Source: Phycisphaerae bacterium
GTDB taxonomy: Bacteria > Planctomycetota > Phycisphaerae > SM23-33
Reading direction: 5' to 3'
Assembly (NCBI GenBank): GCA_009783465.1
Contig: WRDM01000004.1
Location: 1-64,000 of the forward strand
Length of the DNA: 64,000 bases
In this document: piece after piece, positions 1 through 62,333 of the stretch
Numbering within the stretch: position 1 is the stretch's first letter
Layout of the letters: each line of letters starts with the position of its first letter
Position numbers and translations under genes: made by a program
The notes under the pieces: model-generated
What the model was told of the DNA's origin: nothing
Databases searched by the model: none
Seen by the model: only the letters and a program-made list of their open reading frames with translations

Positions 1-338
1 GCCGAGGACGAGCCAGGCCAGGAGGCCGAAGCAGCCGATGCATCGCATCGGCGATGCAGGCCGACGCCGCATGGCGATGCCGCAGGCAGGCCAGCAGTCA
101 CCACGCAAGCTGGAACCGCTCTAGAGGATTGTCGTACTGAAACGAAAAATCCTTAAATCCTTTAATCCGTGTAATCCCGCTCGGTCTTCGCGAAGTCGAA
201 AAGACATAGATATGGCGACTGGAACGTTCTACAGCGCAAACCGGCAAGCCAGATCCACATCACTCGCCACTCCTCCCTCGCCACCGCCGTTTTTCGTGGT
301 ATAATGTCGCCTCGTTTTCATGAGATCATGAGGAACTT

Positions 339-4142: not shown

Positions 4143-4274
4143 GGCTGTTTTCAACGTTCTACAACGCAAACTGGCAGGGCCTGTGGCCGCTTGCGCCGTA
4201 CATAACACCCTACAGCGCAAAAAGGCAAGCCCTTACGAAACGCTTTTTCGCCCTCGTTTCTCCATACCTGCTGG

Positions 4275-7966: not shown

Positions 7967-8155
7967 CGTAGCTCCTTTCAAGGATTTCGAGTTTCGCGGC
8001 AGAAAAAACTGTTTCCGCCAACGACCAAATTACAACAAACATGGCGACTCACATAGTAACCGATAATGATTACAGAGGCAATCGCCAAAAAAAGCAACCT
8101 TTTTTTGGCCGGCGAGAAAATCTCGCAGGGAGAGGCCGTTCACCCGGGAGGCTTT

Positions 8156-8534
8156 TTTTACCACAGAGACACAGAGGACCACAGAGAAGGACGTTGGAAA
8201 CTCGCATAACCGTTTTCACCGGCTCGCCTTTTTACGCTGTCGAACGTCCCTCGCACAGGAATGCGTTATCGCGCACGACGTCCCACAACGCAAAAAGGCG
8301 AGCCGGTGAAAACCATCCCCAGGGCCATCGCATCTAAAAAGTCCCGTTTTTAGGCTGTAGACTGTAGGCTGTAGGCGCGACATGCCGTGTCGAAAAATTT
8401 GTCGCAAAAACTGCCGCGACTACAGCCTACAGTCTACAGCCTACAGCCTTTTCGCGAAAAACGGGGAATTACGATGCGATTGCCCTGAAAACATCCCCTC
8501 CTTCTCTGTGATTCTCTGTGTCTCTGTGGTAAAA
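8156..8534. repeat. nested inverted-repeat locus: family D arms (ACCACAGAGACACAGAG) enclosing a family A hairpin (8211-8313) and a family E hairpin (8343-8465)
   Basis: 8156-8190 is the near-perfect reverse complement of 8500-8534; internal palindromes read directly. Confidence 0.85.
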
Positions 8535-8727: not shown

Positions 8728-9351
8728 ATGCCGAAAAAGAAAGACAAGAATCTGCCCCCCGAGGACAATACAGAGTACGTGCCCGTCGTGTTCGCGGGCG
8801 ACAGCGAGGAGGCCGGCTACTACCGCGACCTGCTGGCCGAACACGACATCCCCGCCGTGATCGGTAAGCCCGCCTCCAGTGAGGAGGACGAGGAGGCCGT
8901 CGGCGAGGGCGTGCCCGTCCTCGTGCCCGAAGCCAACCTCGACGAAGCCAGCGAAATCATCGCCGAAGGCGAAGGCCTCGACGCCTTCGGAGACGAGGAG
9001 GACGACGCCCTCTTCGGCAACGAGGACGAGGACGACAATGACGACGGCGAGGATGACGGCGACGACGATGACGGCGACGACGATGCCTTCGACGACGAAG
9101 ATGAAGAAGACCTCGACGACGACGAACCCGACGAAGACGATCTCGACGAGGAAGACGACGAAGATCTCGACGACGAGGACGAAGAGGACGACGAAGCGTT
9201 CGAGGACGAAGAATTCGACGACGAAGACGAGGACGAGGAAGAAGACGACGAGTTCATGGATGATGAAGAAGACGACGAAGAACTCGACGACTTCGAGGAC
9301 GAAGAGGCCGCGGACGAAGACGAGGATGACGAGGACGAGGACGAAGAATAG
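8728..9351 (+). CDS. DUF2007-like protein with a long poly-Asp/Glu tail
   Basis: VVFAGDSEEAGYYRDLLAEHDIPAVIG...VPVLVPEANLDEASEII is DUF2007-like; roughly 115 following residues are almost all D/E. Confidence 0.7.
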   Translation: MPKKKDKNLPPEDNTEYVPVVFAGDSEEAGYYRDLLAEHDIPAVIGKPASSEEDEEAVGEGVPVLVPEANLDEASEIIAEGEGLDAFGDEEDDALFGNEDEDDNDDGEDDGDDDDGDDDAFDDEDEEDLDDDEPDEDDLDEEDDEDLDDEDEEDDEAFEDEEFDDEDEDEEEDDEFMDDEEDDEELDDFEDEEAADEDEDDEDEDEE

Positions 9352-9357
9352 CCTAAC

Positions 9358-9461
9358 CTGGCCGCAGGCCCTGCCATGTTGCGTTGTAAGACGGTGTGAG
9401 CGACTGAATGTTTCGCCTGTCACAACAATCGACAACGCAAACGGGCAGGGCCTGCGGCCAG
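9358..9461. repeat. family A hairpin element
   Basis: arms 9358-9387 (CTGGCCGCAGGCCCTGCCATGTTGCGTTGT) and 9432-9461 (ACAACGCAAACGGGCAGGGCCTGCGGCCAG). Confidence 0.9.
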
Positions 9462-14965: not shown

Positions 14966-15133
14966 GTAAACAAGCCCTTGTTATCAGGGCAATCACATTC
15001 ACATGACGCGGCGTGCCAGTAAGTGACTTCTTTCTTGGCGTGAGGTATTGCGTTGCGTGAGCGCCTGGTATGACGTACGCGACGCCGGGAGTTTCGGTCA
15101 CGGCAGGCTGGTCACAGCAGGCAGGACCGGTCC

Positions 15134-15421
15134 GAGTCCCGAAGGGACGGCGTCGGGTAGCCCAGGGTGAGCGGTACGCCGCGAACCCTGGGTTTTCGGG
15201 CGTTTTTCAGCTTTTTCATCGTGCCTGACGCCACTGGCCGCAAGGCACACCGTCGCGTGAAGGCGGCATCGAACGACATACACGTTCTCGTGTGTGCGTC
15301 GTTCGAAGCCGACCTCGCATGACGGCGCGGCCTCGGCCAGTGGCGTCAGGCCCGATGCTGTCCCCAGGGTTCGCGGCGTACCGCTCACCCTGGGCTACCC
15401 AACGCCGTCCCTTCGGGACTC
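15134..15421. repeat. nested hairpin: family F arms (59 nt) enclosing a family G hairpin
   Basis: 15134-15192 vs reverse complement of 15363-15421 match with one difference; inner G stem 15221-15240 / 15334-15351; innermost TCGAACGAC/GTCGTTCGA stem. Confidence 0.95.
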
Positions 15422-15495
15422 AGACAAGTTTCGCCTTCCGGCACGTCCAGTCACATGCCCTGCGCGTTCGTACCACCGCCATAATAATAGGGCCC

Positions 15496-16585: not shown

Positions 16586-16716
16586 GACTCGTTCCTTATA
16601 TACGGACGCGTTATTCTACCATAGTTTTTTCCGCGGAGATTACGGGATTCAAGGATTCCCTGGGCAAGCGCATGTGCATTTTCCGGTTTGTTACGTGACC
16701 TTTGTGGTTGGCGTGA

Positions 16717-16821
16717 CTGGCCACAGGCCCTGCCACTTTGCGTTGTCGATCGTTGTTGATCACCGAAACGTTTTGCCGCTCACAACATTTCACAACGCAA
16801 ACTGGCAGGGCCTGTGGCCGG
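16717..16821. repeat. family A hairpin element
   Basis: CTGGCCACAGGCCCTGCCACTTTGCGTTGT ... ACAACGCAAACTGGCAGGGCCTGTGGCCG. Confidence 0.9.
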
Positions 16822-16881: not shown

Positions 16882-18132
16882 ATGCGGCGTATTGAAGAAA
16901 AATTGGCGGCGGGTCAGCGGCTTGACCTGGCCGACGGGCTGGCGCTTTTCGCGTGCCCTGACGTGCACGCGTTGGGTCGGCTTGCGGACACGGTGCGTCG
17001 GCGGCGGCACGGTGTGCGGACGTTTTACAATATCAACTGTCACATCAATTACTCGAACGTGTGCGTGCTGGCGTGTGGCGTGTGTGGATTTTCGCGGCGG
17101 GCAGGCGAGGCGGGCGCGTACGAGATGGGCGTGACGGAGGTGGCGGCGCGGGCGGCCTGTGCGGCGCGGGCGGGCGCGGACGAGGTGCACATCACGGGCG
17201 GGCTGCATCCCGATTGGCCCATGGAGCGGTACGAGGCGATGGTGCGGGCGGTGCGTCGGGCGGCTCCGACATTGCACATCAAGGCGTTCACGGCGGCGGA
17301 GATCGCCCACATGGCGGCCCGCGGCGGCGTGACGGTGGAGGCGGTGTTGCGTCGGTTGATGGCGGCGGGGCTGGACTCGCTGCCGGGCGGCGGCGCGGAG
17401 ATTTTCGATCCGCATGTGCGGGCGGCGATGTTTCCGCGAAAGCTCGACGCGGCCGGCTGGCTGGCCGTCCATCGGCAGGCGCATCGCCTGGGGCTGCGAT
17501 CCAACGCGACGATGCTCTACGGCCATGCGGAAACGCAGCGCCACCGCGTCGAGCATCTGTTGACCCTGCGGGCGTTGCAGGACGAAACCGGCGGATTCCA
17601 GGCTTTCGTACCCTTGCCGTTTATTCCCGCCGCGACGAAGCGAAGCGAAGACGGGCCGCCACGTAGCACGGGCGTCCCGCCCGTGAGTCGCATGGGCGTC
17701 TCGCCCATGCAACCCGTGCCGAAAGAGCAGACTTCCACATCACAACCAAACACGAACGAAGCGTCTACGCCATGCGCCAAACACGGGCGGGACGCCCGTG
17801 GGACTCACGGGCAAGATGCCCGTGCTACGCCCCGTAACGGCGGTGGAATCGACGACCTGCGAACTCTCGCCGTCGCGAGGCTGATGCTGGATAATTTCGA
17901 CCACGTGAAAACATTCTGGATCATGCACGGCCTGAAGCTCTCGCAACTGGCCCTGCACTTCGGCGCCGACGACGTCGACGGCACCGTGATGCGATATGCC
18001 ATCGTCGAACCGCCCGATACAGCCGTCAGCGAATCGCACCTGCGAAAATTGATCGAAGAGGCAGGTCTGAACCCTGTGAAGCGGGATTCGTTCTACCAAC
18101 CTCGCCAGGGTGCACGTCACGTTTGCAGGTGA
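16882..18132 (+). CDS. mqnE: aminofutalosine synthase (radical SAM) with in-frame repeat insertion
   Basis: NVCVLACGVCGFSRR, EVHITGGLHPDWPMERYE, LPGGGAEIFDPHVRAAMFPRK; DNFDHVKTFWIMHGLKLSQLALHFGADDVDGT. Confidence 0.88.
   Translation: MRRIEEKLAAGQRLDLADGLALFACPDVHALGRLADTVRRRRHGVRTFYNINCHINYSNVCVLACGVCGFSRRAGEAGAYEMGVTEVAARAACAARAGADEVHITGGLHPDWPMERYEAMVRAVRRAAPTLHIKAFTAAEIAHMAARGGVTVEAVLRRLMAAGLDSLPGGGAEIFDPHVRAAMFPRKLDAAGWLAVHRQAHRLGLRSNATMLYGHAETQRHRVEHLLTLRALQDETGGFQAFVPLPFIPAATKRSEDGPPRSTGVPPVSRMGVSPMQPVPKEQTSTSQPNTNEASTPCAKHGRDARGTHGQDARATPRNGGGIDDLRTLAVARLMLDNFDHVKTFWIMHGLKLSQLALHFGADDVDGTVMRYAIVEPPDTAVSESHLRKLIEEAGLNPVKRDSFYQPRQGARHVCR
17661..17829. repeat. family C GC-rich inverted repeat inserted in frame in mqnE
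   Basis: cgtagcacgggcgtcccgcccgtgagtc ... gactcacgggcaagatgcccgtgctacg. Confidence 0.9.
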
Positions 18133-18198
18133 AAAAACATGGCGTTAGCCGGGCGTGGAAAACGAACCGAGCGGCCTTCCCGGTCCCGCGCGGCCGTC

Positions 18199-18516
18199 GC
18201 CGGCACACAGCCCCAACGGGGCGTCTTGGGTAGCCCAGGGTGAGCGTACTCGCGAACCCTGGGACATGTGTTTTGTGGAATTCTTTATGTCGTGCCTGAC
18301 GCCACTGGCCGAGGTCACACCATCACGCGAAGACGGCGGTGAATGACGCACCGTCCCTTGTGCGTGTCGTTCGAAGCCGTGTCCGCACGCGTGTCCGCCC
18401 TCGGCCAGTGGCGTCAGGCACGATGTGAGGAGAAACGAAAAACCTTGTCCCCAGGGTTCGCGGCGTACCGCTCACCCTGGGCTACCCAAGACGCCCCGTT
18501 GGGGCTGCGTGCCGGC
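18199..18516. repeat. nested hairpin: family F arms enclosing a family G hairpin (18291-18422)
   Basis: GCCGGCACACAGCCCCAACGGGGCGTCTTGGGTAGCCCAGGGTGAGCG... and its reverse complement at 18450-18516. Confidence 0.93.
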
Positions 18517-18686
18517 GACTTCCACGCAAGACTGGGGAGGAAACCCGGTTGTTTTCCATGCCCATCTATCACCATGCTCCTTGCCACCCACAAACGTGAC
18601 GTGCCCCAACCCGCCGCACCGCCCACACAGCGTGTTGATCGCAAACCACGCCTTGCCGTATCATAGGGGCATCGCAAGGAGCCGCT

Positions 18687-19790
18687 ATGAACCGTGTCCT
18701 GCACATGGTGGGCAGTCTGGGGTGGCACGGCGTCGAGGCCGTGGTGATGAACTATTACCGCCATATCGACCGCACGAAGATCCAATTCGATTTCATCTCG
18801 TGCTCACCGAAACCGCAACGATTCGACGACGAAATCGAACGCCTGGGCGGAAAAATTTACCGCCTGCCAGGCCGCAGCCGACGCCCGCTACGGTACTACG
18901 CCCAATTGAAATCGCTGCTGAAGGCACACCCCGAATACCGCGTCTTTCACGCGCACGGCAACAGCGCCAGCATGGTCATGGACTTGCACGCGGCCAAAGC
19001 GGCGAAGGTTCCCGTGCGGATCGGGCACAGCCATAACACGTCCTGCTTCGTGAAGTGGCAGCACTACCTGTTCAAACCGTTTTTGAACGGCGCCTGCACG
19101 CATCGTTTCGCGTGCTCCGCCGAGGCGGGGAGATGGCTCTTCGGAAAACGCGACGACGTGACCGTGTTGAAAAACGCGATCAACCTCCACACGTTCCGAT
19201 GCGACGTCGCCAGCAGAAACGACATTCGCGGCTCGTTGTCGATCACGGACGACACGCGTGTCCTGGGGCACGTCGGCGGATTGTCTTCCAATAAAAATCA
19301 CACGTTTTTGCTCGATATTTTCAAAGAATTTCTGCGCGACGACGCCCGCGCCGTGCTGCTCCTGGTGGGCGGCGGACCGTTGAAAGACGAGTTGACGGAC
19401 AAGGCCCGGCGGCTGGGCATTGCCGACAGCGTCATTTTTTACGGCAAAACGGACACGCCGGAAAAACTGTTTTCCGCGTTCGACGCGTTTGTGCTGCCGT
19501 CGCTGTACGAAGGCTTGGGCATGGTCGTCGTCGAGGCCGCCGCGTCGGGCCTGCCGTGCCTGGTCTCCGACGTCGTGCCCCAGGAAGTCAACGTAGCCGA
19601 CACGATCCGATTTCTGCCGCTAGGCGACGCAGCCGCCTGGGCGACGGCGCTGCGGGAACTGAATTGGCCACAACGGCGCGCCGATGCCGCGGACGTCGCC
19701 AAAAGCATCGAAGCCCACGGATACAACATCGAACAGGCCTCGCCATCATTGCAGAAATTTTATGAAGAAACCCTGGGCAAACGCCTGTAA
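18687..19790 (+). CDS. glycosyltransferase family 4 (GT1/EpsF-like)
   Basis: [22 protein letters not shown]-terminus; [31 protein letters not shown]. Confidence 0.9.
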
Positions 19791-19949
19791 CGTGACGCGG
19801 GCGTCTGGCCCGCGTGTGGCGAGGGCATCTTGCCCTCGCGGACCGTTCCGCACGGCTGTCGCAATGAAAATACCAAGGCTTTCCATACGGCCAGCGAGGG
19901 CGGGACGCCCTCGCGACACGCGGGCAAGATGCCCGCGTCACGTTACAGG
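19784..19949. repeat. family C-type long inverted repeat spanning the GT4 stop codon
   Basis: CCTGTAACGTGACGCGGGCGTCTGGCCCGCG ... CGCGGGCAAGATGCCCGCGTCACGTTACAGG. Confidence 0.92.
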
Positions 19950-20011
19950 CGATTGCCCTGCGAAGAAACCACATCTTGAAAATTCCCCCCTCCGGGCGTA
20001 CGCTCTGCGTC

Positions 20012-23734: not shown

Positions 23735-23819
23735 GGCTTGCTGTTTTGCGCTGTCGAACGCTCCACACTACCAAACGTTCTCTGACACCACACGATCTGC
23801 AACGCAAACAGGCAGAGCC
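23735..23819. repeat. family A hairpin (divergent arms)
   Basis: GGCTTGCTGTTTTGCGCTGT ... TGCAACGCAAACAGGCAGAGCC. Confidence 0.8.
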
Positions 23820-27305: not shown

Positions 27306-27409
27306 CTGGCCGCAGGCCCTGCCATTTTGCGTTGTCGATCGTTGTGATAACCGAAGCGTTCCATCGCTCACGTCGTCTTGCAACGCAAACTGGCAGGGCC
27401 TGCGGCCAG
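27306..27409. repeat. family A hairpin element
   Basis: CTGGCCGCAGGCCCTGCCATTTTGCGTTGT ... CAACGCAAACTGGCAGGGCCTGCGGCCAG. Confidence 0.92.
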
Positions 27410-30785: not shown

Positions 30786-31841
30786 CTACCTGGCCACGAA
30801 GCGTGCGTCTTCGATTTTTTTCAGCAGGTCGAGGATGGCCGGGGTGTCGCCTCGCAGGGCGCGGGCCTGGTCGATGTAGCGCATCGCGCGGGCGTATTGG
30901 CCGAGGTCGTAATGAAGTTTGGCTGCCGGCATGGAGGCCTCGGCCTGCGTGGTCCAGTAGTCGGCGGCCTTGGCGAAGGCGTCGGCGGCTTGCTCGGTTT
31001 CGCCCCGCGCCTCGAGGAGTTGGCCCAGTTCCAGCCACAATCCGCCGTCGCCCTTGTGTTGCAGGGCGGTCTGGGCGGTCGCGATGGCGCGGTCGTCCAG
31101 GCCGGCCTGCCGGAACGTCTGCACGAGAAGCCGCCAGAGTCGTGGATTGTTTTTATCCTTCTCGACGGCCCGTTCGAGCAGCGATTGCGCCAGCGGCAGT
31201 TCGTTGGTATCCAGGGCAGCCTCGCCCAAAACCGCCAGCGTATCGGCGTCCTGCCAGCCCGCGTCGTACGCCCGCTGACACCAGACGCGCGCCTCGGCAG
31301 GCTGATCGTGACGCATCAGCAGCAGCCCGTACCGCGCCCAGATGTCCGGCGTCGAATCAGGCTGTTCGGTGGCCTTCTTGAAGAGCGGCATGTACGCGGC
31401 CGGATCGTTGTCGCGGCGGCGGGCGAGTTCGCCCTTGAGCCACCACAGCCGGGCCTTCAGGGGCGCCACCTGCTCCAGCCTCGCCAGGGTCTCCGCGGCA
31501 TGGTCGTATCGCTCGCAATCCCACAGCGTCTGGGCGAGCAGCATCAGCACGTCGGCGTCGGTGGGGTCGACCTTGTTGATGTAGCTTCGCATCAGGTCGA
31601 TGGCCGGGGTGTGCTGCTTGTCCCGGATCAGCCCCTGGGCCATTTCCAGCACACGTTGCCCCTCGGGGGTCGCCTGTCGGGGGGGGTCGCTCGCCGGCGG
31701 GCGGAGGGCGATGATCACGCCCACAATCACCAGGCAAACCGCCAACGCCAGCACGACGATACGCAGCATCGCGCCCCCGCGGGCATCGGCGGCGCCGGGA
31801 GCGGCGGCTTTTTTGTTGGCTAGCGAACCGTTTGCTTCCAT
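30786..31841 (-). CDS. TPR-repeat membrane-anchored protein
   Basis: TM LRIVVLALAVCLVIVGVIIAL followed by TPR-like repeats; start at MEANGSLANKK. Confidence 0.75.
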   Translation of the reverse strand: MEANGSLANKKAAAPGAADARGGAMLRIVVLALAVCLVIVGVIIALRPPASDPPRQATPEGQRVLEMAQGLIRDKQHTPAIDLMRSYINKVDPTDADVLMLLAQTLWDCERYDHAAETLARLEQVAPLKARLWWLKGELARRRDNDPAAYMPLFKKATEQPDSTPDIWARYGLLLMRHDQPAEARVWCQRAYDAGWQDADTLAVLGEAALDTNELPLAQSLLERAVEKDKNNPRLWRLLVQTFRQAGLDDRAIATAQTALQHKGDGGLWLELGQLLEARGETEQAADAFAKAADYWTTQAEASMPAAKLHYDLGQYARAMRYIDQARALRGDTPAILDLLKKIEDARFVAR

Positions 31842-31898: not shown

Positions 31899-32036
31899 TT
31901 TCGGTTTCGGCGCGACTGGCCGCAGGCCCTGCCATTTTGCGTTGTAGCTCGCTGTGACAACCGAAGCGTTCCGTCGCTCACAACGTCTTACAACGCAAAA
32001 TGGCAGGGCCTGCGGCCAGTCGCGCCGAAACCGAAA
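31899..32036. repeat. family A hairpin with 48 bp perfect arms
   Basis: 31899-31946 is the exact reverse complement of 31989-32036. Confidence 0.97.
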
Positions 32037-32162
32037 ATCACGCGACAAACTGGATAACGCACATGCGATTACCTTGACAATCTCTTCGCGAAAACCATGG
32101 GAAAATCCTGTATACTTCCCTGCACGTTTGTCGCGACATTTGCACAATACGTAGTTAAGCGG

Positions 32163-33164
32163 ATGGCCTGGATGAAGTCAAACGCATTTACATGGTTGAT
32201 GATCGTCGCCTGCCTGACGTTGCCGCCCGCGTGGGGGGCGGCGGGGCAGGACGTGTCGGCGGAAAGTCAGCCGACCGACGAGCCGACGTCCGCGCCGATC
32301 ACCATGCCGACCACCGCGCCCGCGGCGTCGGAGGACGATGCTGTCAGCCTGCGTCTCCTCCTGCCGCTACTGGCCGTCGGGACGGTTCTGCTGATCGGCT
32401 GGTGCGTACGACGCGTGCAGTCGCCGGGGCCTCTGTACCTGGCCGACGCGCCGCCGAGGCCCAACCGGCTGTCGTCGTGGCATGTGCTGGGCGTCTTCAT
32501 CGCGTTCGTGCTGCTTCAACCGATCCTCGGTTTGACGATGCAACTGACCGGCCTGCCCGTGCGCGACAACGTGACCATGCAGACGCTCGCGGCCATGCTG
32601 TCGCAGGTCGGCTGGCTGGCGGCGGCACTGTTCGTGGCCGGGCGGACGTTTCCATTCGGCCTGCGCGGGCTTGGGCTGGACGCGCGGCATTGGCCCGCCG
32701 ACGCGGGTCGGGCCGTCTTCACCCTGCTGGCCGTCCTGCCCGTCGTGATCGTCACGCTCATCGCGAGCACCCTGCTGGTGCAATGGGCCGTCCAGCAAGG
32801 CCTGCTCAAGGAAGAGGACGTTCGCCTCAACGTCATGCTCGAACGCCTCCGCACCGTCAACGCGCTCGGCAAGACCATGATCGTCATTTCCGCCGTCGTG
32901 CTCGCGCCGCTGGCGGAGGAGATCTTTTTCCGAGGCCTGCTGCAATCCATGCTCCGCAACGTCATGAAACCCTGGCCCGCCATCCTGGTGGCCAGCGGCC
33001 TGTTCGCCCTGGTCCACTTCAGCGCCATCCGCGACGTCATCCCCCTGCTGCCCCTGAGCGTCGTCCTGGGGTACACCTACGAACGCACCGGCAGACTCAT
33101 CACGCCCATCCTCATCCACGCCCTCTTCAACGCCGTCATGCTCGCGACGTTCCTGGCGGGGTGA
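32163..33164 (+). CDS. CPBP family intramembrane glutamic endopeptidase
   Basis: APLAEEIFFRGLLQSMLRN; GLFALVHFSAI; TPILIHALFNAVM. Confidence 0.88.
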   Translation: MAWMKSNAFTWLMIVACLTLPPAWGAAGQDVSAESQPTDEPTSAPITMPTTAPAASEDDAVSLRLLLPLLAVGTVLLIGWCVRRVQSPGPLYLADAPPRPNRLSSWHVLGVFIAFVLLQPILGLTMQLTGLPVRDNVTMQTLAAMLSQVGWLAAALFVAGRTFPFGLRGLGLDARHWPADAGRAVFTLLAVLPVVIVTLIASTLLVQWAVQQGLLKEEDVRLNVMLERLRTVNALGKTMIVISAVVLAPLAEEIFFRGLLQSMLRNVMKPWPAILVASGLFALVHFSAIRDVIPLLPLSVVLGYTYERTGRLITPILIHALFNAVMLATFLAG

Positions 33165-33381
33165 GACAGGCTGTAGGCACACGGGACGTTGTAGACGGCG
33201 TACCCTGGCCACAGGCCCTGCCATTTTGCGTCGTAAAACGTGGTGTGCGGCAGAACATTTCGCTGTACACACCGATCTACGACGCAACATGGCAGGGCCT
33301 GCGGCCAAATTTGGCTATGCGATGATTACCACCCAAAACCCCACGTCGCGCCTACAGCCTTCGGTCTACAGCCTGTCTGCA
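33165..33381. repeat. family E arms enclosing a family A hairpin (33205-33307)
   Basis: gacaggctgtaggc at 33165; cgcctacagccttcggtctacagcctgtc ending about 33378. Confidence 0.8.
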
Positions 33382-33460
33382 ACTTTTTTGAAACATTTTT
33401 CTTTCCCCACGCGTCTAAGGTACGATGCATTACCTTGACCCCGCACGAAAGGAAGCCCAC

Positions 33461-36400
33461 ATGCACCGTCGAATGACCGTCCTCGCGGCCTCGTTGATTC
33501 TGGCGATTCTGGCGTCGGCCCATAGGTCCGCCCTGGCGGGCGACATCGGGTTCGTCGAAGACTTCAGCCTCGCGCCAAACCGCGACGCCGCCCTCAAAAC
33601 CCTCATCCCCGGCTCGGAAGACTTCTACTACTTCCACTGCCTCCACTACCAAAACAGCGGGCAGTTGGACAAGGTCGACCCCACGTTCAAAACCTGGGCA
33701 GCCCGCTACGCGCCGCGCGGCGAAGGCCAATACAACGACCGCATGTGGCAGATCAAACATCGCCAGGCCCTGCTCCAGTACGAACAACAGCCGCAGGTGT
33801 CGCTGGAATATCTCCGCGCCCGCCTGAACGTGCACTTCAACCACCAACGCCAGGCCGAGGTCGATGCCGCCAACGCCAATCTGCCCAGCACGCTCGACGA
33901 CAACACCTTCGACCTCAAACGGCTGATGGAACAAAACCTGGGAAACAGAACCGACACAGGCCGGTTCGAGTCGCTCGGTCTGGAGCTGCTGGCCGCCGAT
34001 CCGAAACTCCTCGCCGACAACACCACCCTCCGCCACAGCCTGCTGACGCGGCTGACCCGCCCGGACTATCCAGGCCTGGTGAAACTCGTCAGCCTCGGTA
34101 TGAACGACGACCTGGACAACACCTCCAACTTCGGCAACGTCGCCATCCACTATCAGCTCACGCGGGCCCAGTTCGACGAACTGCTCAAACTCCACCCGCG
34201 ACTGATCCACGACAATAATTTCGTCAACGCCTACCTATCCAAACTTCGCCCCGGCGACGACGTGGACATGAACCAGGACCTCGCCGCCCGAAAGGCCTAC
34301 CTCGAAGGCCTGTGGGAATTCACCAAGCCGCTCGCGCCCGCATTCAACAGCCTCAAGGCCAACGTGCTTCACAGCCTGCTGGATTTCAACCGCCGGCAAA
34401 ACGCGTGGAACCAGGCCCTGTTCATCGAATACCTCAAACTTCCCCGCCAGTGCCGATACATCGAACCTCGCTACTTCAAAGACGCCATCGACAACAGCGC
34501 ACGCCGCAGCATCATCGCCGATCTCAACGCCAACTTCGGCCAATTCATCGTCGCCCCGCCTGTCGGCAACGACGAACCGCTCGTCCGCGACTACCTGCTG
34601 CACTTCCTCGCCGGCGCGGAAAACTACAACGCCTTCGACCCCTACGTCGAATCCAACTACCTCCGCGCCGCCTTCGCCGAAGCCAATCTCCTGGCCGGAA
34701 AAGGCGACCCAGAAAAATGGTTCGGCATGATGGCCCCCGAACAAGTGCAGGCCCTCAAGGAACGCGTCGACGTCGATCTGGCCCTGGCCAACAAACTCTT
34801 CTTCCGCCCCGATGAACCCGTCACCCTCACCGTCGCCACCAAAAACGTCAAGGAACTCATCGTCAAAGTCTATACCATCAACACGATGAACTACTACCGC
34901 GCGACGATGATGCCCATCAGCACCGACATCGACCTCGACGGCCTCGTCGCCAACGTCGAACGAACCGAAACCTTCAACGACGCCCCCATCCGACGCGTTG
35001 AACGAACGCTCGAACTGCCCGAAATCGCGGGCCGAGGCGTCTTCATCGTCGAACTCATCGGCAACGGCAAGAGCAGCCGGGCGCTCATCCAGAAAGGCAA
35101 CCTCTTCCTCACCGACCGCGTCAGCGCCGCCGGGCAAGTCCTCACGATCTGGAACGAATCCAACGAAAAAGTCGCCGACGCCTCCGTCTTCGTCTCCGGA
35201 CAACTCTACTCCGCCGACACGGACGGCCACGTCACCGTCCCCTTCACCGCCCAGGGCGGAAACCAACCGATCATCCTCCATGCCGCCGGACTGGCCCGGC
35301 TGGCCTACTACCGCGCGATCCCCGAACAATACGCCTTCCGCGCGGGAATCTACATCGACCGCGAATCCCTGCTCCGCCGCCGCGACGCGCAGGTCATCGT
35401 CCGACCGTCGCTCCAGATCGCCGGCACGCCCGTCAGCGTCCACCTGCTCGAAAACGTCCACCTCGAAATCGCCACCACCGACCGCGAGGGCGTCCGCTCC
35501 GTCAAACGCGTCAACGACCTCACACTCTTCGACGACAAGGAAACCGCCGTCTCCTTCCGCGTGCCCGACAACATCCTCGACGTCACCTGCACGTTGCGGG
35601 CCCAGATCAAAAGCATGGCCACCCGGCAACCCATCGACCTGACGGCCACGCAGAGTTTCCCGATCAATCAGATCGACACGACCGCCCACACGCAGGACCT
35701 GCACCTGATGCACGTCGACGGCGACTACATGATCGAACTGCTCGGAAAAACCGGCGAAATTCAGCCAAACCAGGCCGTCCGGGTGACGTTCAAACACCGC
35801 TTCTTCACGCAGACGATCCACGCGACGCTCAAGACCGACGCCAACGGACGCATCCATCTCGGGAAACTGCCGCGGGTGGACCTCCTCCGCGCCGACGCGC
35901 CGCAGGGATTCCACCGCACCTGGACGCTGCCTCGCGACCAGCGCGCGGGGCACGACGTCGTGCACGGTCAGTCGATGCACCGGGCGGAGCACGGTCAGGC
36001 GCTCGGCGTCGTCTTCGTCCCCTATCTCGGCCAGGCCGACAAAGTAACGCCGGAGAATTTCTCGCTGCTGGAAACTCGCGGCGGAACGTTCGTCGTCGAC
36101 CGGACCGCCGAACTCGCGCTGACCGGCGACGGCTACCTCACCACCGAAGGCCTGGCCGCGGGCGACTACAGCCTGCGACTCAAAGAAACAGGCCAGGAAA
36201 TCACCATCCGCCTGGCCGCGGGCCCGGTCGTCGAAGGCTACGTCATGGGCGCCACCCGCAAACTGGAGTTCAACCGCCACGTCCCGCTGAACATCGTCGA
36301 CGTCTCCGCCGACAACGACACCGTCACCATCCAACTCGGCGGCGTGACCGAATTCACGCGAGTCCACCTCGTCGCCACACGGTATCAGCCGAACTTCTCC

Positions 36401-39400
36401 ATCCTCGGCCACCTGTTCCTGCCCGTCGCGGGCCTCGACAGCGTGACCAGCGCCTACCCGCCGTCGCTCTACGTCAGCGGCCGCGATATCGGCGACGAAT
36501 ACCGCTACATCCTCGAACGAAAATCCGCCGCCAAATTCCCCGGCAACATGCTCGCCCGCCCAGGCCTGCTGCTCAATCCCTGGGCCATCCGAAAAACCGA
36601 AACCGGCACACAACAAGCCCACGCCGGCAGCGAGTACGAAATGCAGGGCGAGAACCTCGCGCGCGGAGCGGGCGGAAGGATGTTTAGCAGCAGCGCCGGC
36701 GGCCGCCCCGGAACCATCCCGCCGCACGGCGGCAATCTCGACTTCCTCTCGCAGACCTCCGCCGTACTGGCCAGCCTGACGCCCGACGAAAACGGCCTCG
36801 TCACCGTCAAGCGGGCCAACCTCGGTGCCCATCAGCAGATCCACGTCCTCGCCGTCGACACCGAATCGTCCGTCTATCGCGAGTTGGCCCTGCCCGAGCA
36901 GAAAATGCCCTTCCTCGACCTCCGCCTCATGAAGGAAGCGCTCCCCGCCGACAAACATTTCACCGAACGAAAACAGATCACCCCGCTACAGGCCGGCGGA
37001 CAACTCGTCATCAACGACATCGGCGCCAGCCGAGTCGAAACCTTCGACTCCCTCGAATCCGTCTACCGGCTCTACTCCGCGCTCACCAACAACCCGACGC
37101 TCGCGGAGTTCAACTTCATCCTCGCCTGGCCGGGCCTGAACGACGAACAAAAACGCGAAAAATGGTCCCGATACGCCTGCCACGAACTGGCCTTCTTCCT
37201 CTACCACAAAGACCGCCCGTTCTTCGACACGGTGATCCTGCCCTATCTCAAAAACAAAAAAGACAAAACCTTCATGGATCACTACCTGCTAGGCAACGAC
37301 CAGCAGTTGAAAACATTCACCGACCCGTGGGCATACCGCCGACTCAACGCCGCCGAACGCGTCCTGCTCGCCCAACGACTCGCCGACGAATCCGCCCGGA
37401 CCGCCCGGCACGTCGAGGACGTCTTCAATCTCACCCCGCCCAACGTCGAACGGTTCAACTTCCTCTACAACACCGCCCTGCTCTCAGGCGGACTCGACCG
37501 CGGCCCAAGGTTCGGCCTGCGTATACAAGATGGCCAAAGCGCACGGGAACTCCGAACGAACCTCGAATACGCCGCCGCGGACGCGGACGGTGAGAGATCG
37601 TACGGGTACGATGCCGATGAGGATTCGCCCATGCTCGACGCCTCCCAGGCCCCCGCGCCGATGATAGCGGAAAACGCCAAGAGCGCAGCCGCAACCCCAC
37701 GCGCCGCCACAGCACAGGCGGACAAGGCCGACCGGGCCGCCACAACGCTGCCAGGAACGACACTCCGTAGAACAGAACGACAACCAAACGATCTGATCGC
37801 CCGCGTCCCCAATTTCGCCGGCGCCGAACTCGAACTCGGGGAACGCGTGGAGGCCATGCGCCAACGTCGCGAAGCCACCCGGCAGTTCTATCGCAAACTC
37901 GAAGCCACCGAGGAACTCGTCGAAAACAACTACTACCGCCTGCCCATCGGGCATCAAAACGAGTCCCTGATCCCGGTCAACGGATTCTGGCTGGATTACG
38001 CCAAGTATACCGATAGCAACGCCCGGCGGCTGGGCAGAGCGACCAACTTCCTCTCGCCAAACTTCATCCACGCCGCGAACACCTTCTCCGAAATGATGCT
38101 CGCCCTGGCCGTGCTCGACCTGCCCTTTGCCGCCGAAAAACACGACATGGCCATCGACGACGCAAAGCTCACCCTCAAGGCCGCCTCGCCGATGATCGTC
38201 TTCCACAAGGAAACCAAACCCGCCGCCGACGGCCAGCGGGGAGCCATCCTCGTCGGGCAAAACTACTTCCGCCAGGACGACCGCCATCGCGACGAGGGCA
38301 ACGAACGATTCGACAAATACGTCACCGACGAATTCCTCATCGGCGTCGTGTACGGCTGTCAGGTCGTCGTCACCAACCCCACCAGCACGCCGCGAAAACT
38401 CGACGTCCTCGTCCAGATCCCCCAGGGCGCCCTGCCGGTGGACAACACCCTCGCCACCAAGAGCATCCACGTCCAACTCGCGCCCTACGCGACGCAGACG
38501 CTCGAATACTTCTTCTATTGGCCAAAAACCGGCCAATTCACAGGCCTGCCCGTCCAGGTCAGCAAAGATGAACAACTCGTCGGCTTCGCCGAGCCGATGA
38601 CGTTCAAGGTCGTCCGCGAACTGACGCAGATCGACCGCACGAGTTGGGAATACGTCAGCCAGCACGGCTCCGGCGACGACGTGCTCGCGTTCCTCAAGGA
38701 CAACAACGTCGAACGGCTGAACCTGTACCTCATCGCCTGGCGGATGGCCGACGCGAAATTCTTCGGCCAAACCCTCGCCCTGCTTCGCGACCGGCACATG
38801 TACGAAAACACGCTGTGGTCCTACGGCATCAAGCACAACGACGTGCCCGCCGTCCGCGAATTCCTGCTGCATCAAGACCACTTCGTCTATCAGTGTGGCC
38901 TGTGGCTGAGCAGCCCGTTGCTGAGCATCGACCCCGTGACCCGGACGTGGTACCAGCACATGGAATACGCCCCGGTGGTCAACGCGCGGGCGCACCAGCT
39001 CGGCAAAACGCGAACCATCGTCAACGAACGGATTTTCCAGCAATATTCCGCCCTGCTGGAGGTGCTGAAATTCAAGCCCGCCCTCAACGACGAGGATCGA
39101 TTGGCCGTCACGTACTACCTGCTGCTCCAGGACCGCGTGGAAGAAGGCTTGGCGTGTCTGAAATCGGTGGACGCAGCCAAGCTCGCCGAGCGGTTGCAGT
39201 ACGATTACCTCCAGGCCTACGCGGGGTTCTATACGGAAGATCTCGCCGCCAGCCGCGAGTTGACGACCGCGTACAAGGACTACCCGGTCGACCGCTGGCG
39301 GAAACTGTTCGAGGCCGTGGGTGTGCAACTGGACGAACTCGACGGCGCCGCCGCCGGTGTGGTGGATGAGCAGAGCCGCGACCAGGCAATGGGCAAACTC

Positions 39401-40015
39401 GCCGCCACCGAGCCGGGACTGGAATTCACCGTCGAGGGCGGCAAGGTGAAGATGACGTATCAGAACCTCGGCAACGCTTCCGTTCGCGTAAACTATTACC
39501 TGATGGACGTGGAACTGCTCTTCAGCAAGAATCCGTTCGTCGAGCAAAGCGGCGCAACGAGCTTCGCGTATGTCCAGCCGAACGCGACGGCGGATCTGAA
39601 GTTGCCGGACTTCAAGGCCCATGTCGCCGAACCCGCCGTCAAAACGTTCACGTTCGACCTGCCTAAAGAGATGGCCGGGCGTAACGTGATGATCGAAATC
39701 ACCGCCGGGGCGGTCAAGCGACAGCAGGCGTACTACGCCAACACGATGGTCGTGACGATGCTCGAAAACTACGGCCAGGTGAAAGTCGCCGACGACAAAG
39801 GCAAGGCCCTGGCCAAAGCGTACGTGAAGGTCTACGCCCGCATGAAAACCGGCCAGGTGCGGTTCTACAAGGACGGCTACACCGACCTGCGAGGCCGCTT
39901 CGACTACGCCTCGCTCAACACCGACGACCTCGACAACGTCGAACGATTCTCCATCCTGGTCGTCAGCCCCGATAACGGCGCGCTCGTCCGCTCCGCCGCG
40001 CCGCCGAAACAATAG
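33461..40015 (+). CDS. giant exported protein, macroglobulin-like (MG-type) with possible TPR regions
   Basis: signal peptide MTVLAASLILAILASAHRSALAG; RPDEPVTLTVATKNVKELIVKVYTIN resembles MG domains; no GCGEQ thioester motif seen. Confidence 0.65.
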   Translation: MHRRMTVLAASLILAILASAHRSALAGDIGFVEDFSLAPNRDAALKTLIPGSEDFYYFHCLHYQNSGQLDKVDPTFKTWAARYAPRGEGQYNDRMWQIKHRQALLQYEQQPQVSLEYLRARLNVHFNHQRQAEVDAANANLPSTLDDNTFDLKRLMEQNLGNRTDTGRFESLGLELLAADPKLLADNTTLRHSLLTRLTRPDYPGLVKLVSLGMNDDLDNTSNFGNVAIHYQLTRAQFDELLKLHPRLIHDNNFVNAYLSKLRPGDDVDMNQDLAARKAYLEGLWEFTKPLAPAFNSLKANVLHSLLDFNRRQNAWNQALFIEYLKLPRQCRYIEPRYFKDAIDNSARRSIIADLNANFGQFIVAPPVGNDEPLVRDYLLHFLAGAENYNAFDPYVESNYLRAAFAEANLLAGKGDPEKWFGMMAPEQVQALKERVDVDLALANKLFFRPDEPVTLTVATKNVKELIVKVYTINTMNYYRATMMPISTDIDLDGLVANVERTETFNDAPIRRVERTLELPEIAGRGVFIVELIGNGKSSRALIQKGNLFLTDRVSAAGQVLTIWNESNEKVADASVFVSGQLYSADTDGHVTVPFTAQGGNQPIILHAAGLARLAYYRAIPEQYAFRAGIYIDRESLLRRRDAQVIVRPSLQIAGTPVSVHLLENVHLEIATTDREGVRSVKRVNDLTLFDDKETAVSFRVPDNILDVTCTLRAQIKSMATRQPIDLTATQSFPINQIDTTAHTQDLHLMHVDGDYMIELLGKTGEIQPNQAVRVTFKHRFFTQTIHATLKTDANGRIHLGKLPRVDLLRADAPQGFHRTWTLPRDQRAGHDVVHGQSMHRAEHGQALGVVFVPYLGQADKVTPENFSLLETRGGTFVVDRTAELALTGDGYLTTEGLAAGDYSLRLKETGQEITIRLAAGPVVEGYVMGATRKLEFNRHVPLNIVDVSADNDTVTIQLGGVTEFTRVHLVATRYQPNFSILGHLFLPVAGLDSVTSAYPPSLYVSGRDIGDEYRYILERKSAAKFPGNMLARPGLLLNPWAIRKTETGTQQAHAGSEYEMQGENLARGAGGRMFSSSAGGRPGTIPPHGGNLDFLSQTSAVLASLTPDENGLVTVKRANLGAHQQIHVLAVDTESSVYRELALPEQKMPFLDLRLMKEALPADKHFTERKQITPLQAGGQLVINDIGASRVETFDSLESVYRLYSALTNNPTLAEFNFILAWPGLNDEQKREKWSRYACHELAFFLYHKDRPFFDTVILPYLKNKKDKTFMDHYLLGNDQQLKTFTDPWAYRRLNAAERVLLAQRLADESARTARHVEDVFNLTPPNVERFNFLYNTALLSGGLDRGPRFGLRIQDGQSARELRTNLEYAAADADGERSYGYDADEDSPMLDASQAPAPMIAENAKSAAATPRAATAQADKADRAATTLPGTTLRRTERQPNDLIARVPNFAGAELELGERVEAMRQRREATRQFYRKLEATEELVENNYYRLPIGHQNESLIPVNGFWLDYAKYTDSNARRLGRATNFLSPNFIHAANTFSEMMLALAVLDLPFAAEKHDMAIDDAKLTLKAASPMIVFHKETKPAADGQRGAILVGQNYFRQDDRHRDEGNERFDKYVTDEFLIGVVYGCQVVVTNPTSTPRKLDVLVQIPQGALPVDNTLATKSIHVQLAPYATQTLEYFFYWPKTGQFTGLPVQVSKDEQLVGFAEPMTFKVVRELTQIDRTSWEYVSQHGSGDDVLAFLKDNNVERLNLYLIAWRMADAKFFGQTLALLRDRHMYENTLWSYGIKHNDVPAVREFLLHQDHFVYQCGLWLSSPLLSIDPVTRTWYQHMEYAPVVNARAHQLGKTRTIVNERIFQQYSALLEVLKFKPALNDEDRLAVTYYLLLQDRVEEGLACLKSVDAAKLAERLQYDYLQAYAGFYTEDLAASRELTTAYKDYPVDRWRKLFEAVGVQLDELDGAAAGVVDEQSRDQAMGKLAATEPGLEFTVEGGKVKMTYQNLGNASVRVNYYLMDVELLFSKNPFVEQSGATSFAYVQPNATADLKLPDFKAHVAEPAVKTFTFDLPKEMAGRNVMIEITAGAVKRQQAYYANTMVVTMLENYGQVKVADDKGKALAKAYVKVYARMKTGQVRFYKDGYTDLRGRFDYASLNTDDLDNVERFSILVVSPDNGALVRSAAPPKQ

Positions 40016-40036: not shown

Positions 40037-40120
40037 GGCTTGCCGTTTTGTGCTGTAGAATGTCATGTACTGCAAAATGTTCTGTAGTTCATAACATCCG
40101 ACAGCGCAAAACGGCAAACC
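40037..40120. repeat. family A hairpin (divergent arms)
   Basis: GGCTTGCCGTTTTGTGCTGT ... ACAGCGCAAAACGGCAAACC. Confidence 0.82.
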
Positions 40121-41259: not shown

Positions 41260-41381
41260 TCCGACTTCGCGAAGACCGAGCGGGATTACGCGGATTAACG
41301 GATTAAGGATTTTTCGCTCTGTACGACAATCCTTTTAATCCTTACATCCGTGTAATCCCGCTCGGTCTTCGCGAAGTCGGA
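41260..41381. repeat. family I inverted repeat (GACTTCGCGAAGACCGAGCGGGATTAC)
   Basis: TCCGACTTCGCGAAGACCGAGCGGGATTACGCGGATTAACGG ... its reverse complement; related half copy at about 132-199. Confidence 0.9.
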
Positions 41382-41450
41382 TCATATAACGTTTTGCCTT
41401 ACATAACATTCCACATCGCAAAACGGAAAGCCCTATCGACGATCTGTCGC

Positions 41451-45437: not shown

Positions 45438-45525
45438 CTGGCCACAGGCCCTGCCAGTTTGCGTTGCAAAACGGGCCTGGCGTCAAGAGCGTCCTACAAC
45501 GCAAAATGGCAGGGCCTGTGGCCAG
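45438..45525. repeat. family A hairpin element (short form)
   Basis: CTGGCCACAGGCCCTGCCAGTTTGCGTTG ... CAACGCAAAATGGCAGGGCCTGTGGCCAG. Confidence 0.88.
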
Positions 45526-46264: not shown

Positions 46265-46356
46265 ATATGGCTTGCCGGTTTGCGTTGTAAGACATTGTGA
46301 GCAATAAAACGTTCTGTCGTTCACAACGTCCTACAGCGCAAACCGGCAAACCATAT
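46265..46356. repeat. family A hairpin (divergent arms)
   Basis: ATATGGCTTGCCGGTTTGCGTTGTAAGAC ... CTACAGCGCAAACCGGCAAACCATAT. Confidence 0.9.
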
Positions 46357-48374: not shown

Positions 48375-48617
48375 TTTTCACCACAGAGACACCCTGCTTC
48401 GCTCTACGAGCTACGCAGGGCAAGAAGAGGACTCGGTGAACAGGGCACTTGAAAAATCGTTTTTACCGGCTCGCCTTTTTGCGCCGTTGAATGTTGTGAA
48501 CTACAAAACGCTTTTCCGCACACAACGCTCAACAACGCAAACAGGCTGAGCCATCGCGAAAGTTTTTTCGAATTCCCGGTGCCCCTCTGTGTTTCTCTGT
48601 GTCTCTGTGGTAAAAAA
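48375..48617. repeat. family D arms enclosing a family A hairpin (48468-48552)
   Basis: ttttcaccacagagacac at 48375 and gtgtctctgtggtaaaa ending about 48617. Confidence 0.75.
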
Positions 48618-48622
48618 AGCGT

Positions 48623-49000
48623 ATGGCTACCCCCACGCTGGAATGTTTCGATAATCCGCACCCCGCCCGGGACTACGAGATTCTGCACGTCGCCCCGGAA
48701 TTCACCTCCGTCTGCCCCAAGACCGGCCAGCCGGACTTCGGCACGATCGAAATCCTGTACGTCGCCGACCGGCGGTGCGTGGAACTCAAAAGCCTCAAGT
48801 TCTACCTGCAAAGCTTCCGCAACACGGGCGTGTTTTACGAGGACGTGGTCAACCGCATCCTGGACGATCTGGTGGCCGCGTTGTCGCCGCGGCACATGAC
48901 CGTCACCGGCTCGTTCAGCCCGCGTGGCGGCATGCGAACGGTCGTCACGGCCCGCCACGCCGCTCCCGCCAAACGTGTAACCCGCCGAGGCCGCCCATGA
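48623..49000 (+). CDS. queF: NADPH-dependent 7-cyano-7-deazaguanine reductase
   Basis: [58 protein letters not shown]. Confidence 0.95.
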
Positions 49001-56146: not shown

Positions 56147-57682
56147 ATGAACTATATTTCCACCCGAGGACGGATCCGACCGTGTGCGTTTCTCGATGCC
56201 GTGATGATGGGCCTGGCCGATGACGGCGGGCTTGTGATTCCCGAAGCCATTCCCGACGTGCGCGATCGCCTGACGGCATGGCGGGAGTTGTCCTACGCCG
56301 ACCTGGCGCTCGAGATCATTTCGCTCTTCGCCACCGACGTGCCTCGCGAGGAGTTGCGGCCACTCATCGACAACGCATACGCTGCCGACCGCTGGCCTGG
56401 CGGCGTGGCGCCGACGGTGGCCGTCGGCGACCTGCACGTGCTGGAACTCTGGCACGGCCCGACGCTGGCGTTCAAGGACGTCGCGCTGCAACTGCTGGGC
56501 AACCTCTTCGAATACGTGCTCGCCAGACGGCCTGGGGAGCGGCTCAACATCCTCGGCGCCACCAGCGGCGACACCGGCTCGGCCGCCATCGCCGGCGTGA
56601 GAGGCCGGGCGGGAATCGACATCTTCATGATGCACCCGCGTGGCCGAACCAGCCCCATCCAGGCCCGCCAGATGACCACCGTGCTCGACGACAACGTCCA
56701 CAACATCGCCATTCAGGGCGACTTCGACGACTGTCAGCGGATCATGAAAACCCTGGCCGGCGATTTGGCATTCAAACGCCGCCACCGGGTCGGCGCGGTC
56801 AACAGCGTCAACTGGGCCCGCGTGCTGGCACAGATCGTCTACTACTTCAAATCGGCGTTCGACGTGCAGTCACAACGTAGCACGGGCGTCCCGCCCGTGA
56901 GTCGCATGGGCGTCTCGCCCATGCAAAGCCAGCCAACAGACAAAACGCCCGCATCCCGGCAAAACCATCACGGGCAAGATGCCCGTGAGACTCACGGGCG
57001 GGACGCCCGTGCTACGGAGAAGACCGTCACCTTCGCCGTGCCGACCGGCAATTTCGGCGACGTCCTCGCCGGCTGGTACGCGATGCAAATGGGCTGCCCC
57101 ATCAGCAGGCTCATCCTCGCCACCAACGTCAACGACATCCTCGCGCGATTTTTCGCCACCGGAACATACAGCGCCGGCTCCGTCACGCCAACCTCTTCAC
57201 CGTCGATGGATATCCAAGTCTCCAGCAACTTCGAACGATACCTCTACCACCGCGTCGGCGAAGACCCGGCCAGATTGACGACGTTAATGCAAAACTTCGC
57301 CGACAACGGCTCGCTGTGCGTGGCCTTGGATCGCGACGGCGTGGTGGACCCACAACTCGCCGCCGGCTCCGCCGGCGAACAGGACGTGCTCGCCACCATC
57401 ACCGACACCTGGCGGGATCACAAGTACCTGCTGGATCCGCACACCGCCGTCGGCGTCCACGTCGCCCGCCGCCTGCGACGCGACGGTGAAACGGTCGTCT
57501 GCCTGGCCACCGCGCACCCGGCCAAGTTCCCCGCCGCCATCGAGCAGGCCGTCGGCGAAAACCTCGCCCACCACGACCGCCTCGACGCCCTCGCAAACCT
57601 GCCCACACGCTGCGCCGACCTGCCAAACGATCCACAGGCCGTGCGGATGTTCATCGAAACCACCTTGGAAAGGAAAACATAA
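56147..57682 (+). CDS. thrC: threonine synthase with in-frame repeat insertion
   Basis: MNYISTRGRIRPCAFLDAVMMGLADDGGLVIPE; LWHGPTLAFKDVALQLLGNLFEYVL; GATSGDTGSAAIAGV; FAVPTGNFGDVLAGWYAMQMG. Confidence 0.95.
   Translation: MNYISTRGRIRPCAFLDAVMMGLADDGGLVIPEAIPDVRDRLTAWRELSYADLALEIISLFATDVPREELRPLIDNAYAADRWPGGVAPTVAVGDLHVLELWHGPTLAFKDVALQLLGNLFEYVLARRPGERLNILGATSGDTGSAAIAGVRGRAGIDIFMMHPRGRTSPIQARQMTTVLDDNVHNIAIQGDFDDCQRIMKTLAGDLAFKRRHRVGAVNSVNWARVLAQIVYYFKSAFDVQSQRSTGVPPVSRMGVSPMQSQPTDKTPASRQNHHGQDARETHGRDARATEKTVTFAVPTGNFGDVLAGWYAMQMGCPISRLILATNVNDILARFFATGTYSAGSVTPTSSPSMDIQVSSNFERYLYHRVGEDPARLTTLMQNFADNGSLCVALDRDGVVDPQLAAGSAGEQDVLATITDTWRDHKYLLDPHTAVGVHVARRLRRDGETVVCLATAHPAKFPAAIEQAVGENLAHHDRLDALANLPTRCADLPNDPQAVRMFIETTLERKT
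56876..57016. repeat. family C inverted repeat in thrC, 141 nt (47 codons)
   Basis: CGTAGCACGGGCGTCCCGCCCGTGAGTC ... CACGGGCGGGACGCCCGTGCTACG. Confidence 0.93.
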
Positions 57683-58424: not shown

Positions 58425-58650
58425 GCCGACACACAGCCCCAACGGGGCGTCTGATATAGCCCAGGGTGAGCGGTACGCCGCGAACCCTGGGTTCAGGCGT
58501 TTCTTCGTTTATAATCGTTCGCACGCGCCACGGGCTGGAGTCAAGCACGCATTGTGTACGACGTCCAACAACGCTCCGTTTCGAAAACGGGTGTCGTGGG
58601 CCGCCGTGTTCGTGCGATGGCGTGACTCCAGCCAAGGCGAGAACGAACGG
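58425..58650. repeat. solo family F arm (58425-58492) followed by a distinct inverted repeat (58516-58650)
   Basis: CACAGCCCCAACGGGGCGTCT..AGCCCAGGGTGAGCGGTACGCCGCGAACCCTGGG; GGGCTGGAGTCA / TGACTCCAGCC. Confidence 0.8.
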
Positions 58651-62229: not shown

Positions 62230-62333
62230 CTGGCCGCAGGCCCTGCCATCTTGCGTTGTCGAACGTGGTGCGCGACAAAACGTTTTGATTGTCACAACGA
62301 TCGACAACGCAAAAATGGCAGGGCCTGCGCCAG
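62230..62333. repeat. family A hairpin element
   Basis: CTGGCCGCAGGCCCTGCCATCTTGCGTTGTCG ... CGACAACGCAAAAATGGCAGGGCCTGCGCCAG. Confidence 0.9.

Follow-up and report, generated by a model that had tools for sequence, protein, structure and literature searches.

A palindromic repeat family in a Phycisphaerae genome, probably of REPIN/TIRtron type, and its probable RAYT-like transposase

REPIN/RAYT systems are so far known mostly from Proteobacteria. They follow the rule of one enzyme for one palindrome family (Bertels and Rainey, 2011, PMC3116915). In P. putida and P. fluorescens (Pseudomonas), hundreds of REP parts are joined to stem-loops of unrelated origin (Di Nocera et al., 2013, PMC3733652), and class 3 TnpA-Y1 systems reach a copy number of ~600 in Solibacter usitatus (Caumont-Sarcos et al., 2018, PMC6006769).

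The repeat described here, designated family A, has several of the features that mark a REPIN, namely an inverted pair of conserved sequences that forms a hairpin, a high extragenic copy number and a cognate RAYT with the same repeats. In agreement with REPINs and RAYTs (PMC3116915), its inverted REP-like units are separated by a near-fixed spacer and are predicted to form a hairpin in single-stranded DNA (ssDNA), compensating changes are common, the many copies are extragenic, the RAYT is flanked by the same repeat, and each RAYT has a separate repeat family. Family A differs from those REPINs in coming from a different phylum, in having GC[G/T/A]AA next to the hairpin, where they have GTAG/GTGG, in arms extended to ~110 nt by exchangeable outer modules, and in the location of the transposase gene between the two arms. 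The GTAG/GTGG tetranucleotide was found 5' of the REP hairpin in no family-A copy; because the anatomy is that of a REPIN without the GTAG tag, we do not file family A as a canonical GTAG REP.

Apart from the HTH extension, family A matches what Di Nocera et al. describe as a TIRtron. As in TIRtrons and their TIRYTs (PMC3733652), a RAYT-like gene lies in long inverted repeats that are unrelated to GTAG repeats, and these flanking repeats also form a genomic repeat family. In contrast, the arms shown here have no GGGGWSAS motif, the family is more numerous than the “moderately abundant” TIR families of that study, and the protein of ~197–216 aa lacks the HTH extension that subclass 2.1 carries at its C terminus and that is reported for most TIRYTs (PMC6006769). 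Class 3 TnpA-Y1 of Planctomycetes and Acidobacteria (PMC6006769) is similar in phylum, atypical flanks and high copy number, while it has Y----Q in place of Y-I-x-x-N(P) and a CnGA tag in place of GC[G/T/A]AA.

The window, a stretch of 64,000 nucleotides, lies within contig C4 of an incomplete MAG (2.48 Mb, 70 contigs, ~70% complete). In the window, a profile built from the family-A core picked out 12 hairpins and 4 half-elements, 16 copies in all (Table 1), and it had no match in the reversed sequence. The 12 hairpins and 4 solo arms of the original prediction were recovered exactly. The 48-nt arms of the exemplar proved to be exact reverse complements as described, comparison of the arms bore out the compensating changes in their outer parts, and the GTCGT/ACGAC variant noted at 33205 is present. 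The estimate of a dozen or more copies holds for the window, but the family is far larger. Many copies also reach past the arms described earlier, up to ~260 bp, with exchangeable outer modules.

Table 1 Family-A elements in the window and features of the exemplar hairpin.
Feature	Position	Strand	Remark
Half-element, right half only	209–250	+	core profile
Half-element, type 1 arm	4146–4181	-	core profile
Half-element, type 2 arm	4191–4231	-	core profile
Complete copy, type 2 arms (GGCTCGCC)	8221–8303	+	core profile
Complete copy, type 1 arms	9368–9452	-	core profile
Complete copy, type 1	16726–16811	+	alpha outer module at 16662–16722
Complete copy, type 2 arms	23735–23819	-	core profile
Complete copy, type 1	27315–27399	+	mixed outer modules: left beta, right alpha
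Neighbouring gene, TPR-repeat protein	30786–31841	-	start site uncertain
Exemplar, left arm	31899–31946	+	48 nt, perfect complement of 31989–32036; ssDNA fold
Exemplar, left-arm REP-like unit TGGCCGCAGGCCCTGCCA	31917–31934	+	contains GGC-CCT-GCC
Exemplar, conserved core	31935–32000	+	asymmetric 46-nt centre (contains AGCGTT) between TTTTGCGTTGT and ACAACGCAAA
Exemplar, right arm	31989–32036	+	pairs with left arm; ssDNA fold
Exemplar, right-arm REP-like unit TGGCAGGGCCTGCGGCCA	32001–32018	+	
Neighbouring gene, Rce1-like CAAX endopeptidase	32097–33164	+	start site uncertain
Complete copy, type 1	33215–33299	-	GTCGT/ACGAC variant
Complete copy, type 2 arms	40037–40119	+	core profile
Half-element	41384–41433	-	adjoins another palindromic repeat
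Short-centre copy, type 1 arms	45447–45515	+	centre 30 not 46 nt
Complete copy, type 2 arms	46269–46351	+	core profile
Complete copy, two differing arm types	48468–48552	-	
Complete copy, type 1 arms	62240–62325	-	core profile

The perfectly complementary 48-bp arms of the exemplar enclose a 42-nt loop, and its predicted ssDNA fold (-76.5 kcal/mol) lies far below that of shuffled sequences (z -17). The 18-nt mini-hairpin of the left arm on its own folds no better than shuffles. The sixth base of this left REP-like unit is a purine and covaries with the right arm. No T-run terminator was found at the element, and the TPR and Rce1-like genes on its two sides form a divergent pair.

A repeat census, proposed with the original prediction, found family A spread across the genome. 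The main sample (contigs C1–C4, 453 kb) contains 70 copies, 48 of them complete and 22 half-copies, from which we estimate by extrapolation ~380 copies in the whole genome, ~260 of them complete. A covariance model run on the whole genome gave at least 150 matches, which correspond to at least 90 distinct places by hand count. Of 68 placed copies, 65 lie between genes, to be compared with a coding density of ~85%; both values are based on our own codon-usage gene model. Tandem, convergent and divergent gene gaps are all occupied, and a preference for convergent gaps was not significant (p 0.27). Blastn detected no family-A copy in 39 other genomes, mostly of other genera of the class, and the covariance model gave a single weak match (E 7e-4) in 37 relatives from the order. 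To judge from these searches, family A appears to be essentially restricted to a single species.

The family-A centre (~46 nt) is asymmetric, and each copy can therefore be oriented. On the two sides of the centre lie TTTGCG[TC]TGT/ACA[AG]CGCAAA, followed by a REP-like unit, which is either type 1, TGGCAGGGCCTG[CT]GGCCA (GGC-AGG-GCC), or type 2 (GGC-AA-GCC, GGC-GA-GCC or GGC-AGA-GCC). The tag 5' of the mini-hairpin is GCAAA. Outside the REP-like units sit the exchangeable outer modules. The alpha module, which terminates in conserved CAGGGCAAACGC, has 45 matches in the 453-kb sample, 35 of them adjoining family A, and the beta module has 15. Copies with two outer modules in this sample are alpha/alpha (13), beta/beta (2) or mixed (3), and a palindrome with two alpha modules measures ~260 bp.

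Several further repeats were observed around the elements. The outermost arms of some hairpins are ACCACAGAGACACAGAGG repeats, inverted on the two sides of the element (window 8150–8210 and 48560–48640, C2:62518, C3:29376; 18 matches in 453 kb). Repeats of GGATTACACGGATTAACGGATT, inverted around a TTCGCGAA motif, recurrently adjoin family-A half-elements (window 41260–41381, C1:19203, C1:19385, C3:63477). Alpha-like outer arms (CAGGGCCATCGCATCTA) are not confined to family A: at window 8343–8465, C2:75153, C2:116083 and C2:109919 the inner repeat between them is CTGTAGACTGTAGG or CTGTTAGACTG, and thus outer modules are common to more than one palindrome family.

A RAYT-like Y1 HUH transposase gene is present three times in the genome, twice between family-A arms. 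A genome search with Pfam Y1_Tnp missed this enzyme, whose score lies below the cut-off, and it was located by reading the sequence between two half-elements (C1:94362 and C1:95026). The gene that they enclose, C1:94435–95028, has an intact frame; its product of 197 aa contains the motifs HIH and YITDNF. The two other copies are broken: that at C48:6418 is frameshifted and is preceded by a complete element and a left arm, while a right arm follows closely behind its stop, and that at C12:13889 has one TAG stop, with a complete family-A element just upstream. The HUH residues H103/H105 and Tyr164 are conserved in alignments of 13 and 32 sequences. The NCBIfam model of the REP-associated tyrosine transposase (NF047646) matches all 13 family members, with the genome's own protein (member 1) at 25.2 bits against a curated cut-off of 80 bits. 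In the fold predicted for a planctomycete relative 44% identical to the genome's own protein (pLDDT 91), all top-ranking matches are IS200/RAYT Y1 transposases; the Z score is ~12.9 with the IS608 and ISDra2 transposases and 11.3 with E. coli TnpA-REP (4ER8), the latter over residues 1–179 including the tyrosine helix. The tyrosine motif, Y-I-x-x-N(P), is of the class 2 type, and the W motif (W followed by G/A/S, or F in place of W, in alignment A1) fits no class 2 row in Table 1 of Caumont-Sarcos et al. (PMC6006769); on these motifs, a new RAYT subclass is possible.

The search for a REP-associated tyrosine transposase, suggested at the outset, has thus found an enzyme of this type in a gene bracketed by family-A arms, and it probably moves family A. 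Further mobilisers could exist in this incomplete MAG. The two Pfam Y1_Tnp matches (L031 and L032) have no family-A copy nearby. On C23, copies of another palindrome family, TAGCCCAGGGTGAGC...GCGAACCCTGGG with CCCCGAAGGGGCG, lie to the left and right (L031:1258–1360 and 1938–2040) of a second, IS200-like Y1 transposase; this family also occurs in the window (15119–15436, 18160–18555, 58425–58493).

Relatives of the linked transposase are nearly all from Planctomycetota, and the closest are from Phycisphaerae MAGs, which makes it likely that the host belongs to the planctomycetes. Flanking inverted arms with a score of at least 14 were present at 36 of 77 testable planctomycete loci and at none of 77 mismatched-flank controls, which scored 13 at most. 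By this test, about half of the related genes have no flanking arms. The arms differ in sequence and have a common design, a GC[G/T/A]AA tag plus a mini-hairpin. The AA-loop mini-hairpin (G)CCGC-AA-GCGG(C) was found in 62 of 157 flanks versus 5 of 106 distant controls (p 1.6e-11) and is commonly preceded by GC[G/T/A]AA; GCAAA-N-GGC-AA-GCC of family A conforms to this pattern. A relative in a sister genus is flanked by a palindrome of other sequence that recurs at ~40 places, while in another genus the arm palindrome is much rarer (8 matches).

The two arms of each copy covary. In 53 aligned copies, 92.2% of the cells pair, compared with 82.2% when partners are shuffled, and both sides are changed in 147 cells against 46 in the shuffles. 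Sliding the pairing partner abolishes the signal. The covariation, which the original prediction had proposed for analysis, is strong, extending over 20 of 31 pairs. The arms within an element are more alike than permuted arms for both type 1 (z 7.8) and type 2 (z 5.2). Variable positions combine fairly freely with one another yet match across the arms, and the controls retain the relatedness of the copies.

We consider it very likely that family A is a non-autonomous element of REPIN/TIRtron type, moved in trans as ssDNA by its cognate RAYT. The mobile hairpin of REP/BIME kind that had been predicted is supported by the intergenic copies throughout the genome and by a REP-associated-type transposase bracketed by the same arms. 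Two inverted REP-like arms joined by the 46-nt centre would fold when a copy becomes single-stranded at the replication fork. The cognate enzyme would be the RAYT-like Y1 HUH transposase, with C1:94435–95028 as the best candidate. It would recognise the arm mini-hairpins and the GC[G/T/A]AA tag, cut with its single tyrosine and join the hairpin into another intergenic site. Excision and integration, a strand polarity and activity at present are all inferred. The short copies would be transposase units that lack the gene. Arm covariation would be kept because only symmetrical hairpins are substrates, or because one half is sometimes recopied onto the other, or both.

A further-reaching proposal, which we put forward tentatively and judge somewhat less probable than its opposite, is that Planctomycetota have their own RAYT subclass, in which a GC[G/T/A]AA guide replaces GTAG and the arms are kept symmetrical by arm-to-arm copying while single-stranded. 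If so, the covariation would stem from the way in which the elements transpose or replicate and not from selection acting on an RNA.

The copies might instead be fossils of an old spread, with their symmetry produced by replication template switching (quasipalindrome correction) without a transposase. The centres at C2:100432 and C1:120791 are perfectly symmetrical despite the asymmetric family centre, as though one half were a copy of the other. The family-A core is partly or wholly missing from alpha palindromes at C2:90675–90775, C4:83426–83520 and C13:35277–35383, and the direct repeats GGCGCC and GCCAGTT at the junctions of the first two suggest slippage deletion. The symmetrical centres, the first two of these derivatives and the two broken transposase genes among three are in line with a fossil population, but the third transposase retains its frame and catalytic residues, and complete copies exceed half-copies by 48 to 22. 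We regard this explanation as very unlikely.

Slightly less probable still is a structured RNA, such as a terminator, an mRNA stabiliser or a regulator, under selection for its RNA fold. The strong covariation and the location between genes would agree with it. A functional RNA read from one strand is expected to favour or tolerate G-U pairs. On the oriented strand, however, A-C mismatches are as frequent as G-T (40 and 39 in type 1, 18 and 17 in type 2), and this symmetry points to a cause of the covariation at the DNA level. An Rfam scan of the window matched no family at the gathering score, the exemplar lies between divergent genes, all types of gene gap are occupied without significant bias, and by the searches above the family is limited to essentially one species. 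The RNA alternative named in the original prediction is thus not favoured.

A classical MITE with a DDE-type IS parent and alpha modules as terminal inverted repeats would account for a short element with long inverted repeats and conserved alpha ends, but it is the least probable explanation by our estimate, as alpha pairs in the 453-kb sample and the genome-scan matches listed hold the family-A core or nothing and no gene-sized insert, beta and other outer modules freely substitute for alpha, and it is a Y1 transposase that was found within the arms. The earlier term “MITE-like” applies in the broad sense of non-autonomous, but not for the linked enzyme, which is a Y1 HUH and not a DDE transposase.

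Read as a RAYT-mobilised element, family A would be a dense population of REPIN/RAYT type from a phylum other than Proteobacteria, a population in which the arms still enclose the transposase gene. The planctomycete relatives provide a broad set with one common arm design and a differing tag, in which co-evolution of the guide tag and the enzyme can be tested. The family also calls for caution, since covariation in repeated palindromes need not signal a structured RNA.

Other features were observed in the window. The coding signal is strong in an open frame of 2196 aa (33425–40015), for which Pfam gave no match up to E 10. A further palindromic repeat, CGTAGCACGGGCGTCCCGCCCGTG, is present in several copies (17662–17829, 19775–19958, 56876–57016). 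A frame rich in Asp and Glu codons (8944–9356) encodes a long low-complexity acidic tail and ends beside the hairpin at 9358.
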